Position numbers and translations under genes: made by a program
In this document: positions 17,441-23,115 of the stretch, piece after piece
Position numbering within the stretch: the first letter of the stretch is position 1
How the letters are laid out: each line of letters begins with the position of its first letter
Notes under the pieces: generated by a model
The model's database searches: none
What the model was told of the DNA's origin: nothing
Seen by the model: only the letters and a program-made list of their open reading frames with translations
Origin: Thermoleophilia bacterium
Lineage (GTDB): Bacteria; Actinomycetota; Thermoleophilia; Gaiellales; Gaiellaceae
Length of the DNA stretch: 64,000 bases
Direction of reading: 5' to 3'
Assembly (NCBI GenBank): GCA_025929895.1
Contig: JAICPI010000001.1
Coordinates: 1 to 64,000 of the forward strand

Positions 17441-17701
17441 CTAGTAGAGCGGCCGGCCAGTCAGGACCGCGATCGTCATCCCGAGGACGAACGCGACCGT
17501 CGCGCCGCCGACCGCGAACGCGTGCAGGTTGCCCCAGCGGCCGCCGATCCCCGTGGCGACGAGGCTCAGCACGAGCGCGGCGAGCGAGAGCGGCAGCGGA
17601 CGGACCGCCAGCGCCATCGCCGACAGGAACAACGCTGCTGCGGACATGTAGCCGGCGACGACCTCGGCGGGACGCGCGCGCTCGAGCGGCGACGTGCTCA
17701 T
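17441..17701 (-). CDS. Small membrane protein, 86 aa
   Basis: Not recognised. After a polar start (MSTSPLERARPAEVV) there are three predicted hydrophobic helices covering most of the protein (about 15-33, 36-53, 62-80). The ATG overlaps the stop of the upstream small membrane gene, and the whole run of minus-strand genes from 21397 is close-packed, so it is probably the last gene of that operon. Confidence 0.62.
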   Translation of the reverse strand: MSTSPLERARPAEVVAGYMSAAALFLSAMALAVRPLPLSLAALVLSLVATGIGGRWGNLHAFAVGGATVAFVLGMTIAVLTGRPLY

Positions 17702-17946
17702 CGCCGGGCTCCGGCGGTCGCGACGCGAGGGCGGGCTCCTCTGGGCGTGCGCGGCCGGAGGCCCGCGTGCCAGGTGCAGGGTGCAGGCGAGGGCGACCGC
17801 GGCTCCAGTGCGGCGGGCACGAGCGCGGCGGGCTCGTAAGGGTCCGGGGCGGCTCGGACCGCCCACCAGACGACGCCGATCAGGTAGAGGATCGGGAGCT
17901 TCAGCACGAGCATCATGAACACGAACTCCCAGGCCGAGACGCTCAC
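17698..17946 (-). CDS. Small membrane protein with a disordered tail, 82 aa
   Basis: Not recognised. One hydrophobic helix (about 7-30, containing VFMMLVLKLPILYLIGVVWW) is followed by a Pro/Ala/Arg-rich tail. It lies 27 bp after the 91-aa membrane gene and overlaps the next start (ATGA). It is an accessory gene of unknown role at the end of the peptide/ABC/M50 operon. The tail could be poorly conserved. Confidence 0.55.
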   Translation of the reverse strand: MSVSAWEFVFMMLVLKLPILYLIGVVWWAVRAAPDPYEPAALVPAALEPRSPSPAPCTWHAGLRPRTPRGARPRVATAGARR

Positions 17947-17973
17947 GAGGCGGGAAGTCTACGCGAACCCCTT

Positions 17974-18249
17974 TCACGGGCCCCTCCGTCCACGAGCGTC
18001 CAGGACGGCCGCAGCCGCCGCGTTCAGGAAGCCGCCGAGGAGCGGCAGCACGAGGAGCGCCGGGCCGAAGGCGGTTTCCGAGCCGTCGGCGCGCCGCTCG
18101 AAGGACAGGAGCTCGAGTTCGCCGAGCGCGACCCGGAACGCATCGCGTCCGGAGGCCTCGGCGAGCACCATTGCCAAGATCGCGGAGCCGAGGGCGAGCG
18201 CGGCGACCGCTGCAGCGCCGAGGAGGAACGCGGTCACGACAATCCGCAC
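17974..18249 (-). CDS. Small two-helix membrane protein, 91 aa
   Basis: Not recognised. From GTG 18249, which lies inside the end of the M50 gene, the product has a helix at about 4-30, a short soluble stretch with Glu/Arg, and a second helix at about 62-80. The 16-bp overlap points to co-translation with the PqqD-M50 protein, so it may be a partner subunit of the protease or exporter. Confidence 0.6.
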   Translation of the reverse strand: MRIVVTAFLLGAAAVAALALGSAILAMVLAEASGRDAFRVALGELELLSFERRADGSETAFGPALLVLPLLGGFLNAAAAAVLDARGRRGP

Positions 18250-19046
18250 AGCGCTCTCCCGTCGCGGCTCGCGACGGTCAGCCCGAGCGCGTTCGCGAAG
18301 CAGACGAGCGCGGCGGCGCCGGCTTCGGTCGAGGGCCGCACGGAGGCCAGCGCGACGAGACAGAGCGCGAGGGCAATCCCGGCCACCGGGCCGGACGCCG
18401 CCACGGCTCTCGTCCGTCGCGGCGAGACGGCCCCGTGCACGACGGACGCACGGAATCCGCGCACGACGATGCACGCAGGGACGCCGCGCAGCGCGGCGAG
18501 GTGCGCGAGCTCGTGAAGCGCGACGGCCGCGGCGATCGCGATGCCGAGCGTCGCGAAGAGCGTCGGCGCGGTCACGCCGAACGCGGCGAGGAGCAGCGCC
18601 GAGGTCGTCGTTCCCGCGACGAGCAGGAGCGCGAGGAAGGGGGCGAGCGCGACCGGAGCCGTTCGCGCCAGCGAGCAGGCGCTCGACGTGTCGACCGCGC
18701 GCCTGGCGCGTGCCGTCGTCGGGAGGCGACCCAACGGGAGGAGCGCCGGCACGGTGCGCAGCCAGCGCCACGCGACCGCTGCGATCCTCCAGCGGGGCGA
18801 GACGTTGAGCAGGAAGCGCGCGTTGAGCTCGGCGAAGAGCGACAGAACGTCTCGGAGCGCCGTCTCCGCATCGACCCCGTAGCGCCGCTCCAGCGCGGCG
18901 GCCGCTTCACTCGCAGTGCGCGCGTCGAGCGCGACGAGCGCGGTCGCGTTGACCGGGACGGCGGACGGTCGCAGGACGTCGACGAGCGCGTCGTCGCGCA
19001 GCTCGACGCCCTTGGGAAGCCGAACGCGGTCGAAGGGGCCGATCAT
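18234..19046 (-). CDS. PqqD-like domain fused to an M50 (site-2) metalloprotease
   Basis: A 270-residue fusion. Residues about 5-82 fit the PqqD fold: VNATALVALDARTASEAAAA, then RRYGVDAETALRDVL and a closing hydrophobic strand. This is the domain that binds leader peptides in RiPP pathways. After linker and membrane helices comes an intramembrane zinc protease core with HELAH (His178, Glu179, His182) and the second M50 motif N252...DG with Asp262. A reader-plus-protease fusion suggests recognition and cleavage of a specific peptide in the membrane. The ATG overlaps the permease stop (ATGA). YydH of the Bacillus yyd cassette is a functional analogue. The PqqD assignment is by pattern, not profile search. 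Confidence 0.75.
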   Translation of the reverse strand: MIGPFDRVRLPKGVELRDDALVDVLRPSAVPVNATALVALDARTASEAAAALERRYGVDAETALRDVLSLFAELNARFLLNVSPRWRIAAVAWRWLRTVPALLPLGRLPTTARARRAVDTSSACSLARTAPVALAPFLALLLVAGTTTSALLLAAFGVTAPTLFATLGIAIAAAVALHELAHLAALRGVPACIVVRGFRASVVHGAVSPRRTRAVAASGPVAGIALALCLVALASVRPSTEAGAAALVCFANALGLTVASRDGRALCGLS

Positions 19047-20389
19047 CGAGCCAGCACCGCCGCCGCGCTGACGCCGAGCGCGAGCATCAGGTTCCCTGCG
19101 AGGACGGCGAACGCGGTCCCGTCGGGGACGATGCGCCCGAGCAGGCCCACCGCCGTCCAGGCCGCGACGACGACGCCGAGCACCGCGACGTACGACACGA
19201 CCTGATGGAGGATGCGATCCGGGTGCCACGGGACGACGGCGCCGGACAGCACCGCGCAGCCGAGGACGAACGCCGACGCGCTCTCGAGCTCGAGGTAGAT
19301 CGAGGCGGGGGGAAGCCCGAGCGGAGCCGAGAGCAGCGCGGCGGCCACGAGTAGCGCGGCTGCCGCGCCGACGCCGCCGGCCGCGGCGGCCGCCGCGATC
19401 GCCGAGCCGCGCCGGGGTGCGGACGCGAGCAGCCAGCGCCCGCCCCGGGTGAGGCCGAGTCCCGCCGGCGGGTAGAGCACCGCCGCCGTGAGCGTGACCG
19501 CGACGCAGAACACGCTCGCAGCCGCGCCGACGATCCCGAGGGCGGCCCACGCAGTGAGGGCCGCCCCCAGCGGCAGGACCACCGCGGTGGCGCCGTGGAG
19601 CCGCAGGTCCGGGCGACGGAGGATGCGCCGTGCGGTCACGAGCGCAACCGCCGGCCCGGCGCGGGCCGGGAGGCGGCGCAGCCGGGCGACGCGGGTGGGC
19701 GCGCGTTCGCGCCGCGCCAAACCGCAGGCGACGATCCAGAGCACGAGCCCCGTAGCCGCCACCGCCGGCAGCGCGACGAGACCGCGCTCCGCGTCGACGG
19801 CGCCGATCGGCCCGAGCGCGACCCTTCCTCCGTGCGCACTGGACGCCGCGGCCCACGCGAGCGCGACCGCGGCGAACGTCGGCGCCCCGCTCGGCTCCCC
19901 CGCCGCAACCAGGCGCACGCCTTCTCCCAGCGCGGCGCCCAGGCTCGCGCACGCGAGCGCGAGCAGGAGGAGCTCGACGCCTGTCGAGCCGGCGAGCGGG
20001 ACCACGAAGCACGCGAGCACGAGCGCCGGCAGGCACGCGGCGACACAGACCGGGACGATCACCGCGCCCGTCGCGAGCGCCGCGCGCGGCCGCGGCGCCG
20101 CTGCGACCTGCGGGCCGAGCGCTTCCGGACCGGGCGCGAGCAGGGCGACCGAGCTCCCCGCCACGACCGCACTCAGGCCGAGGCCCACGGCGAGCGCTCG
20201 GACGAACGCAGGGTCGGCGGCCGCCTCCGCGAACGCCGACGAGAGCCGTGCGCCGGCCCAGAAGGCAGCACCCGGCGCCGCTGCGACCAGGAAGGCCGCG
20301 AGCGCCGCGAGGAGCGGATTCTCGGCGAGCGCCGGACGCACCCGGCGCCACGCGCAGGCGCACACCGCCCTAGAGATCGCCCAATGCAC
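19043..20389 (-). CDS. ABC-type transporter membrane subunit (putative peptide exporter)
   Basis: A 448-residue protein made almost entirely of hydrophobic helices (about 10-12) with short Arg-rich loops and no recognisable soluble domain. No specific family is recognised. Its role as the permease is inferred because it starts inside the end of the ABC ATPase gene (20-bp overlap) and its stop overlaps the PqqD-M50 start. By analogy with yydI-yydJ cassettes it would export or clear the small peptide encoded at the head of the operon. Confidence 0.7.
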   Translation of the reverse strand: MHWAISRAVCACAWRRVRPALAENPLLAALAAFLVAAAPGAAFWAGARLSSAFAEAAADPAFVRALAVGLGLSAVVAGSSVALLAPGPEALGPQVAAAPRPRAALATGAVIVPVCVAACLPALVLACFVVPLAGSTGVELLLLALACASLGAALGEGVRLVAAGEPSGAPTFAAVALAWAAASSAHGGRVALGPIGAVDAERGLVALPAVAATGLVLWIVACGLARRERAPTRVARLRRLPARAGPAVALVTARRILRRPDLRLHGATAVVLPLGAALTAWAALGIVGAAASVFCVAVTLTAAVLYPPAGLGLTRGGRWLLASAPRRGSAIAAAAAAGGVGAAAALLVAAALLSAPLGLPPASIYLELESASAFVLGCAVLSGAVVPWHPDRILHQVVSYVAVLGVVVAAWTAVGLLGRIVPDGTAFAVLAGNLMLALGVSAAAVLAR

Positions 20390-21143
20390 GGCGCGCCTCC
20401 TCCAGTCGGTCGCCGGTCCGGAGCGCGCGGACGAAGACGGCCTCGAGCGTCGCCGCAGCGAACCGCGAGCGCAGCTCGTCGAGCGACCCCTCCGCGACGG
20501 CCCGGCCCGCGCTCAGGAGCGTGATCCGGTCGCACACGGACTCCGCGAAGTGCAGATCCTGCGTCGCGACCACAACACCGCGCCCTCGCGAGGCCGTGGC
20601 GCGGAGGAGCTCGCGCAGCAGGAGGACGGCCTCGGGGTCGAGCGCCGCCGTCGCCTCGTCGACGAGGAGCAGCGGCCGGTCGAGCGCGAAGCCGGCGACG
20701 ATCGCAGCGAGCCGCCGCTGCCCGTGCGAGAGCGAGCCGAGCTGCTCCGCGCGACGTCCGTGCAAACCGAACGCCCCGAGCAGGACGTCGGCCCGTCGCG
20801 CGAACCCGTCGCGAACGTCCCACAACGCAGAGACGAGCGCGAGGAGCTCGTCGACCGACAACTCGTCGAGCCCGCCCGGCTCGTCGGGGACCCACGCCGA
20901 CCGCCTCCGCGCCGGGAGCGAGCCGCCGACGAGGCCGTCGACCCGCACCGAGCCCTCGGCCGCGGGGACGAGCCCGAGGACCGCTCGCAAGGTCGTCGTC
21001 TTGCCGCATCCGTTCGGGCCGACGAGGCCGACGACCGAGCCGCTGCCGACGTCGAGGTCGACGCCGTCGACGGCGCGGACGGCCCCGAAGGTCACGACGA
21101 GCCCTCGGACGACGAGCGGCTGCACGGGCACGACCGCACTCAC
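20370..21143 (-). CDS. ABC transporter ATP-binding protein
   Basis: The 257-residue nucleotide-binding subunit. It has Walker A GPNGCGKTT (about 37-45), a Q-loop region replaced by WVPDEPGGLDELSV, ABC signature LSHGQRR, Walker B LLLVDEATAALDP, and a switch His region around VVVATQDLHF. The Q-loop position lacks the usual Gln and the H-loop His is shifted (TQDLHF), so ATPase details may differ. The GTG at 21143 gives the standard N-terminus; GTG 21131 is an alternative. It lies 41 bp downstream of the short peptide gene. Confidence 0.88.
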   Translation of the reverse strand: MSAVVPVQPLVVRGLVVTFGAVRAVDGVDLDVGSGSVVGLVGPNGCGKTTTLRAVLGLVPAAEGSVRVDGLVGGSLPARRRSAWVPDEPGGLDELSVDELLALVSALWDVRDGFARRADVLLGAFGLHGRRAEQLGSLSHGQRRLAAIVAGFALDRPLLLVDEATAALDPEAVLLLRELLRATASRGRGVVVATQDLHFAESVCDRITLLSAGRAVAEGSLDELRSRFAAATLEAVFVRALRTGDRLEEARRALGDL

Positions 21144-21184
21144 CGCGGCGGCGGGAGGTCCCCCGGGCCTCCCGCGGACGCGGT

Positions 21185-21397
21185 TCAGCGGTTGCAGGAG
21201 ACCTTGATCCGGAACCATCCGATGTCGATGTCGGGGTCTCCGCCCTGGTGGATGCAGTACGCCGACCACGCGAGGGCCGCGCTGAGGGTGAAGACCCAGA
21301 CGGCCCACACCACCCACGGCTGCTCGATCGCGGTCTCGCCCGGCCAGACGACCGCCGGGGGCTCGTACCCCGGCCGGGAGAGGGCCAGAGCGCTCAC
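21185..21397 (-). CDS. Short membrane peptide heading the ABC/PqqD-M50 operon (candidate precursor)
   Basis: Not recognised. The 70-residue product has an N-terminal soluble part (about 1-27, Pro-rich, with ETAIEQP), one hydrophobic helix (about 28-48, rich in Trp and Ala, ending in YCI), and a short polar C-terminal segment (HQGGDPDIDIGWFRIKVSCN). The GTG at 21397 has an excellent AGGAGGT site, so it is well translated. Being first in an operon with an ATPase, a permease and a PqqD-M50 protease makes it a candidate substrate or precursor. A plain accessory subunit is the alternative. Confidence 0.65.
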   Translation of the reverse strand: MSALALSRPGYEPPAVVWPGETAIEQPWVVWAVWVFTLSAALAWSAYCIHQGGDPDIDIGWFRIKVSCNR

Positions 21398-21533
21398 TTC
21401 GCACCTCCTGTTCGACGACCCCGCCGACGCTAGCCAGCGACCTGAATCACGTGGGAATCGCCCTCGACTCGAATCCGAATCGAGCTTTCCACCGTTGCGT
21501 TAGACGGGTGGACCGAGCGGGAACCTCCGAGCC

Positions 21534-22616: not shown

Positions 22617-22689
22617 TGGAGCCGACGGGACTCGAACCCGTGACCTAGCGGCTGCCAGCCGCTCGCTCTCCCAGCTGAGCTACGGCCCC
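22617..22689 (-). tRNA. tRNA-Ala (GGC)
   Basis: A complete 73-base cloverleaf on the minus strand. The acceptor GGGGCCG pairs with CGGCTCC. The anticodon loop CTGGCAG in an AGCGG/CCGCT stem gives GGC. The T-arm contains GGGTTCGAGTCCC, the discriminator is A, and there is no encoded CCA. The 5' 45 bases overlap the 3' end of the nuclease gene at 22645-23115. Confidence 0.95.
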
Positions 22690-23115
22690 GAGCCGTTGGA
22701 GTGTAGCCGCGAACTCGTAGTTCCTGGCCCAACGAATCCGACGTGCCTGGTTATTTCTGGCGGCTGTGAGTCGGCGTTGCACCACCGCACCCGGCGGCAC
22801 ATCTTCGAACGGGATCAGATACGTGCGGTTGTCATGCGCGGAGTACACCGCGAACAGGTCGACCTCGTCCGCGGTGTAGTACTGCCGCAAGAGTCCGTCG
22901 GCGTTACGACGAGCTCGACAGCAGCGCACGACCAGGACGTCACGGTAGAGGCTCGCCCACTTGCACTGGACTCGAAGCAGCCGGGTGCCGATCTCGAACA
23001 GCATGTCGGTCCTTCCGCCTTGCGCGAACGGGACATAGACCCCGACGCCGAGTTCGAGCGCGGCGGCGACGAACTTGGCCTCCGCGATCGCGCCTTTCTG
23101 ATCCGTCGTCAACAT
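22645..23115 (-). CDS. PD-(D/E)XK nuclease family protein running into tRNA-Ala
   Basis: A 156-residue protein resembling the short PD-(D/E)XK endonucleases first described in group I introns. It has KGAIAEAKFVAAALELGVGVYVP, then GGRTDMLFEI (catalytic Asp) and LRVQCKWA (Q-x-K, catalytic Lys). A C-terminal Tyr/Phe segment with YTADEVDLFAVYSAHD follows. The last 14 or so residues are encoded by the 5' half of tRNA-Ala and are probably not part of the fold. The gene overlaps a tRNA on the same strand. The ATG at 23115 has no clear ribosome site. No intron is present in the tRNA. Confidence 0.75.
   Translation of the reverse strand: MLTTDQKGAIAEAKFVAAALELGVGVYVPFAQGGRTDMLFEIGTRLLRVQCKWASLYRDVLVVRCCRARRNADGLLRQYYTADEVDLFAVYSAHDNRTYLIPFEDVPPGAVVQRRLTAARNNQARRIRWARNYEFAATLQRLGAVAQLGERAAGSR

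Follow-up and report, generated by a model that had tools for sequence, protein, structure and literature searches.

Among ribosomally synthesized and post-translationally modified peptides (RiPPs), leader removal assisted by a RiPP recognition element (RRE) is established for lasso peptides, and the epipeptides have the M50 protease EpeP (PMC10885120). In the epipeptide locus yydFGHIJ, the presumed role of the protease is peptide release, whereas the pair of ATP-binding cassette (ABC) genes was postulated to provide immunity (PMC7026026). Daptide clusters encode an RRE that is fused N-terminally to a site-2 protease, together with ABC genes (PMC10036551). The leaders of lasso peptides and of linear polyphosphorylated peptides (LPP) carry the motif [Y/W]xxPx[L/V/I/F/A] (PMC13381572, PMC12710340), and in LppB, as in an actinobacterial lasso RRE, Asn33 fixes a kink at the leader proline and Asp70 bonds the leader tyrosine (PMC13381572). 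Here, we describe five minus-strand genes of a Thermoleophilia bacterium that encode, in this order, a short peptide, an ABC ATPase, a permease, a fusion of a PqqD-like RRE with a site-2-protease-like domain, and a 91-residue protein with two transmembrane (TM) segments. They lie at positions 21397-17974 of the window, by which we mean the whole analyzed stretch of 64,000 nucleotides (contig JAICPI010000001.1) of a 2.64-Mb draft genome, and they were compared with the metagenome-assembled genomes of relatives (Actinomycetota/Thermoleophilia). Locus comparison showed that the five genes are a real, narrow, and conserved unit, and we lean modestly toward reading this unit as a cassette for the maturation and export of a peptide. 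Its parts are as follows:

21185..21397, minus strand: gene of the 70-residue precursor peptide, GTG start (homologues in five other genomes, 30-44% identity)
21338..21367, minus strand: leader motif Y11-E-P-P14-A-V16-x-x-x-G20, of the lasso type YxxPx[L/V]xxxG (Tyr and Pro invariant in six of six precursors)
21257..21313, minus strand: hydrophobic or TM stretch covering about residues 29-47 of the precursor (hydropathy scan)
21194..21256, minus strand: conserved C-terminal segment of the precursor, C48...GG...I..GW...KVxC68 (C48, G52, G53, I57, G60, V66, and C68 invariant in six of six)
21151..21175, minus strand: GC hairpin immediately downstream of the precursor stop codon, which may be an attenuator or a processing stem (same position in six loci)
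20370..21143, minus strand: ABC transporter ATPase, exporter-like (matches ABC_tran of Pfam at E 9e-22; DrrA is its best relative in NCBIfam, with a score under the cut-off)
19043..20389, minus strand: multi-TM permease with about 11 hydrophobic segments and no Pfam family
18234..19046, minus strand: fusion of RRE (PqqD-like) and site-2-protease-like domain, 270 residues (Pfam PqqD, invariant motifs, predicted fold)
18798..19046, minus strand: RRE domain (residues 1-83 of the fusion), in which N33 and D66 are invariant (matches PqqD of Pfam and, by hmmsearch, 6jx3 at E 3.7e-4; matched in fold with Z 10.5)
18501..18515, minus strand: HELAH (HExxH), residues 178-182, putative zinc site (HExxH invariant in five of five homologues)
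18255..18263, minus strand: DGR at residues 262-264, putatively providing the third metal ligand (DGRxxC invariant in five of five; poorly modelled region)
17974..18249, minus strand: sm1, the fifth gene of the cassette, encoding the 91-residue two-TM protein, a candidate for an accessory or immunity role (G001, G030, G184, and G312 have syntenic homologues)

The order of all five genes is intact in three relatives (G030, G184, and G312). Two further contigs agree over the part that is present, one starting inside the permease gene (G001) and one ending inside the ATPase gene (G192), and in a genome of another class (G728) the peptide, ATPase, and permease genes follow one another until the contig ends within the permease. 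Accordingly placed permease homologues were found in G030, G184, G312, and G001, and a partial one in G728. Among 399 genomes of the class, strong matches to the peptide occurred in five and strong matches to the fusion protein also in five, with four genomes shared and both exceptions at contig ends; the hypergeometric p value of 2e-8 overstates independence, because the count ignores phylogeny and the carriers belong to two genera only. The stronger argument is the gene order, which is kept between divergent proteins. A first-pass annotation of this DNA had proposed that the peptide should co-occur with the PqqD-M50 gene and not be absent or unrelated where the ABC and M50 genes are kept, and wherever contigs are intact, the genomes with the PqqD-protease gene do carry a related peptide. 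The RiPP-like logic that it had suggested, with precursor, RRE-protease, and ABC pair conserved together, was likewise supported.

The 70-residue frame is, judged from its sequence, a real gene. An AGGAGG (21404-21409) stands six bases ahead of the GTG start, and homologues were found by profile and pairwise searches in G030, G184, G192, and G312 at 39-44% identity, as well as a distant one in G728 (profile E 1e-11). Within the family, 5 of 103 genomes carry the peptide. Pfam and NCBIfam contain no model for the precursor, and weak matches in G321, G213, and G218 were set aside as chance or unrelated. The six-sequence precursor profile can now be used for searching the undersampled Thermoleophilia.

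The Tyr and Pro of the lasso/LPP leader motif are common to all six aligned precursors, and the fusion protein has the matching features of a leader-binding partner. Its N-terminal part reached 28.6 bits with PqqD (PF05402; cut-off 23.4), and all five fusion homologues match this family; for four of the five, the best NCBIfam relative is the lasso PqqD chaperone, far below its cut-off. When a profile of the five homologues was used, the best sequence match in the PDB was the lasso B1 protein TfuB1 (6jx3, E 3.7e-4). Asn33 and Asp66, which are invariant in all five fusion proteins, align with the Asn and Asp of TfuB1 and, inferred from alignment, would correspond to the leader-contacting residues of LppB. 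Thus, a lasso-type leader motif is present in all six precursors, and the fused RRE is closest by sequence to lasso B1 among solved structures, which is new.

The remainder of the fusion is predicted to form a site-2-protease-like core behind the RRE fold. The HExxH, GP, and DGR motifs are invariant in all five homologues, and HExxH and the downstream Asp-Gly motif are placed in helices of the AlphaFold2 model, as expected for a site-2 protease. In this model (mean predicted local distance difference test score, pLDDT, 72), the RRE fold leads into a helical core, and the C-terminal DGR region is poorly modelled. Foldseek and VIA-align matched the RRE to lasso B1-leader complexes and PqqD (6jx3, 5v1v, and 5sxy) and the helical core to SpoIVFB and the M. 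jannaschii site-2 protease. The top row of VIA-align was 8hkr (Z 11.5), a methyltransferase C-terminal domain; we read this match as a shared fold resembling the winged helix-turn-helix and rejected it as a functional hint. A single fusion protein as query found nothing in the scan of genome contigs, and an alignment of the fusion proteins found three relatives. Weak matches to the fusion protein (E 1e-7 to 1e-4) were set aside as chance or unrelated M50s. In a phylum-wide search, only weak matches appeared outside the family, mostly to the RRE part.

From these parts, we infer leader binding, cleavage and its site, export, a disulfide, a product, and a biological role as follows. The RRE of the fusion would bind the precursor leader and pass the peptide on to the site-2-protease-like domain behind it. 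This domain would cut at or in the membrane and thereby free the C-terminal part. The ABC ATPase and the permease may export the product or protect the producer; both roles are kept because the ABC pair of yydFGHIJ was postulated to provide immunity (PMC7026026). The permease model (pLDDT 41.6) is unusable, and no fold is claimed for it. The 91-residue two-TM protein could be an accessory or immunity protein. The conserved unit contains no modifying enzyme, including radical SAM enzymes, whose absence had already been noticed in the first-pass annotation, and the product may therefore be unmodified or closed only by a disulfide (C48-C68). More tentatively, we propose that this is a minimal RRE pathway free of modification. 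The lasso-type leader and the RRE would then have the sole task of bringing a TM precursor to the intramembrane protease fused to the RRE, and the exported peptide, the C-terminal half of which is no less conserved than the leader, would be unmodified or carry a disulfide at most. Peptide release without modification may thus be a further use of RREs, and the cassette offers a small, testable system in which to ask how a leader-binding domain confers substrate specificity on an intramembrane protease.

The nearest precedents are the daptide fusion of RRE and site-2 protease and the lasso pairing of leader and RRE. Lasso clusters with a discrete RRE B1 (PMC12710340, PMC13381572; PDB 6jx3 and 5v1v) share the YxxPx[L/V] leader and the leader-contacting Asn and Asp, and their leader peptidase depends on the RRE, as we propose by analogy for the cassette. 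However, the peptidase of the cassette is a membrane-bound site-2-protease-like domain fused to the RRE instead of a transglutaminase-like B2, and neither B2 nor an Asn-synthase-like cyclase is encoded in the unit, which is thus not a lasso cluster. The LPP systems (PMC13381572) also have a YxxPx[V/L] leader and an RRE, which presents the linear precursor to a leader peptidase of a non-lasso type, but they use a protease resembling signal peptidase I, a discrete RRE, a kinase, and an NTP transferase, occur in Bacillota, and have variable C-termini. No signal-peptidase-I-like leader peptidase, HprK-like kinase, or NTP transferase is present in the conserved unit, and the cassette is not LPP. 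The small precursor, the M50-type membrane protease, and the ABC pair recall the epipeptides (yydFGHIJ/epeXEPAB; PMC7026026, PMC10885120), in agreement with the likeness in general layout and logic that had been pointed out before. Membership does not follow from this likeness: unlike epipeptide clusters, the cassette lacks a radical-SAM epimerase, its protease is fused to an RRE, and its precursor combines a lasso-type leader motif with a TM segment, so that it is not an epipeptide cluster. The joining of the lasso leader/RRE code to an RRE-site-2 protease fusion appears to be new, as no paper with this combination was found in the literature searched, most subscription journals being outside the search.

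Several observations weigh against a cassette for peptide maturation and export. YxxP occurs in 12-24% of shuffles of one peptide, and its presence in one peptide was not taken as evidence by itself; the motif carries weight because it is invariant in six precursors and stands together with the RRE residues. The C-terminal half of the precursor is conserved at least as strongly as the leader, unlike in typical RiPP precursors. The fusion did not reach the cut-off of Pfam M50 (PF02163; 10.1 versus 27.2 bits), which is why we call it site-2-protease-like, and the fold matches of the protease part (Z 7.6-8.8) are moderate for a helical protein. Of the earlier description of a PqqD-like domain fused to a site-2 protease, the PqqD part hence stands by sequence, whereas the M50 part stands by motifs and predicted fold and not by sequence score. 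Furthermore, carriers are few, comprising two genera and one short contig in another class, and no fusion gene was found in the latter, G728, whose contig ends within the permease.

Regulated intramembrane proteolysis is the competing explanation that survives best. The peptide would then be a resident small membrane protein that serves the ABC transporter as sensor or accessory subunit and is turned over by the RRE-protease as a signal, with no exported product. A TM segment followed by a highly conserved C-terminal segment is what one expects of a working protein, site-2 proteases commonly act in signalling, and a modifying enzyme is missing. Nevertheless, we consider this explanation unlikely, since an RRE and a lasso-type leader motif are characteristic of RiPP precursor handling, and the layout, in which the precursor comes first and its stop is followed in most loci by a hairpin, also speaks for such handling. 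This hairpin is found in all six loci; it clearly exceeds the background in four of them and is weaker in G312, whereas that of the window does not exceed chance and was not accepted as significant alone.

It could also be that the cassette makes a conventionally modified RiPP, with the modifying enzyme encoded elsewhere in the genome. The invariant cysteines and the Trp/Phe-rich C-terminal segment would suit such a peptide, and the window's own genome has a separate lasso-type cluster (L099, G000:C110, 2608-4612), in which genes for PqqD (B1), Transglut_core3 (B2), and an Asn_synthase-like cyclase lie beside ABC genes. However, the lasso B2 family PF13471 is absent from the other five of the six carriers and the cassette is not accompanied by any conserved modifying gene, which makes this explanation, in our view, less probable still than a signalling role. 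A further RiPP-like locus was seen in one cassette carrier (L100, G192:C126, 3280-7207), where a radical-SAM protein with a C-terminal PqqD is encoded near a second PqqD-containing frame.

With regard to the daptides (MpaP/DapP; PMC10036551), the likeness extends beyond the N-terminal RRE fusion to multi-component ABC genes, a short precursor with a hydrophobic stretch, and occurrence in Actinomycetota, and the cassette might be a divergent daptide cluster after loss of the modification genes. Daptide clusters have an oxidative decarboxylase, a DUF-RRE, an aminotransferase, a methyltransferase, the leader ELExMEAP, a C-terminal Thr, and often several precursors, none of which is seen here. In particular, no oxidative decarboxylase, aminotransferase, or methyltransferase is encoded in the conserved unit or the neighbours tested, and the six precursors have YxxPx[L/V] instead of ELExMEAP and in no case a C-terminal Thr. 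A daptide origin is therefore improbable, and the cassette is not a daptide cluster; it is set apart from MpaP by description and not by direct sequence comparison. In a pearlin-like scaffold pathway, the protease would remove a modified residue from the C-terminal end of the precursor, as the M50 proteases TglG and TmoG do in pearlin pathways (PMC10885120). The invariant Cys near the C-terminus would fit this explanation, but it is highly improbable, given that the conserved unit has no dehydratase-like gene and that an ABC pair and a TM precursor are ill-suited to an intracellular, reused scaffold.

The proposed maturation and export cassette is smaller than first described. All seven close-packed minus-strand genes of the first-pass annotation are present where it had placed them, including the three small membrane proteins, but they are not one operon, and only sm1 of the three small proteins belongs to the cassette. 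The other two are as follows:

17698..17946, minus strand: sm2, resident small membrane protein, not cassette-specific (homologues in 37 of 61 relatives; next to kgd without cassette)
17441..17701, minus strand: sm3, resident small membrane protein, not cassette-specific (adjoins sm2 and kgd in cassette-free genomes)

We rejected a seven-gene operon in favour of the five-gene unit because sm2 and sm3 precede kgd with or without the cassette. In two cassette-free genomes (G033 and G031), sm2 adjoins a divergent sigma gene with no cassette in between and no room for sm1. Hence, sm2, sm3, and kgd are the resident neighbourhood, with the cassette placed upstream of them; these small membrane proteins (17441-17946) are kept ahead of kgd across the bacterial family. 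Scans for sigma-70 promoters and terminators found nothing, and PADLOC returned generic ATPase matches only. At the place that the cassette occupies in the window, directly upstream of sm2 and kgd, a related genome has a different RiPP-like set (L080, G020:C9, 6848-11915) of YcaO, nitroreductase, CPBP-type protease, ABC ATPase, and permease genes, and this site may be a hotspot for peptide clusters. On the other side of the cassette, a PDDEXK_5 endonuclease gene lies at 22645-23115 between the sigma factor gene and rsfS.
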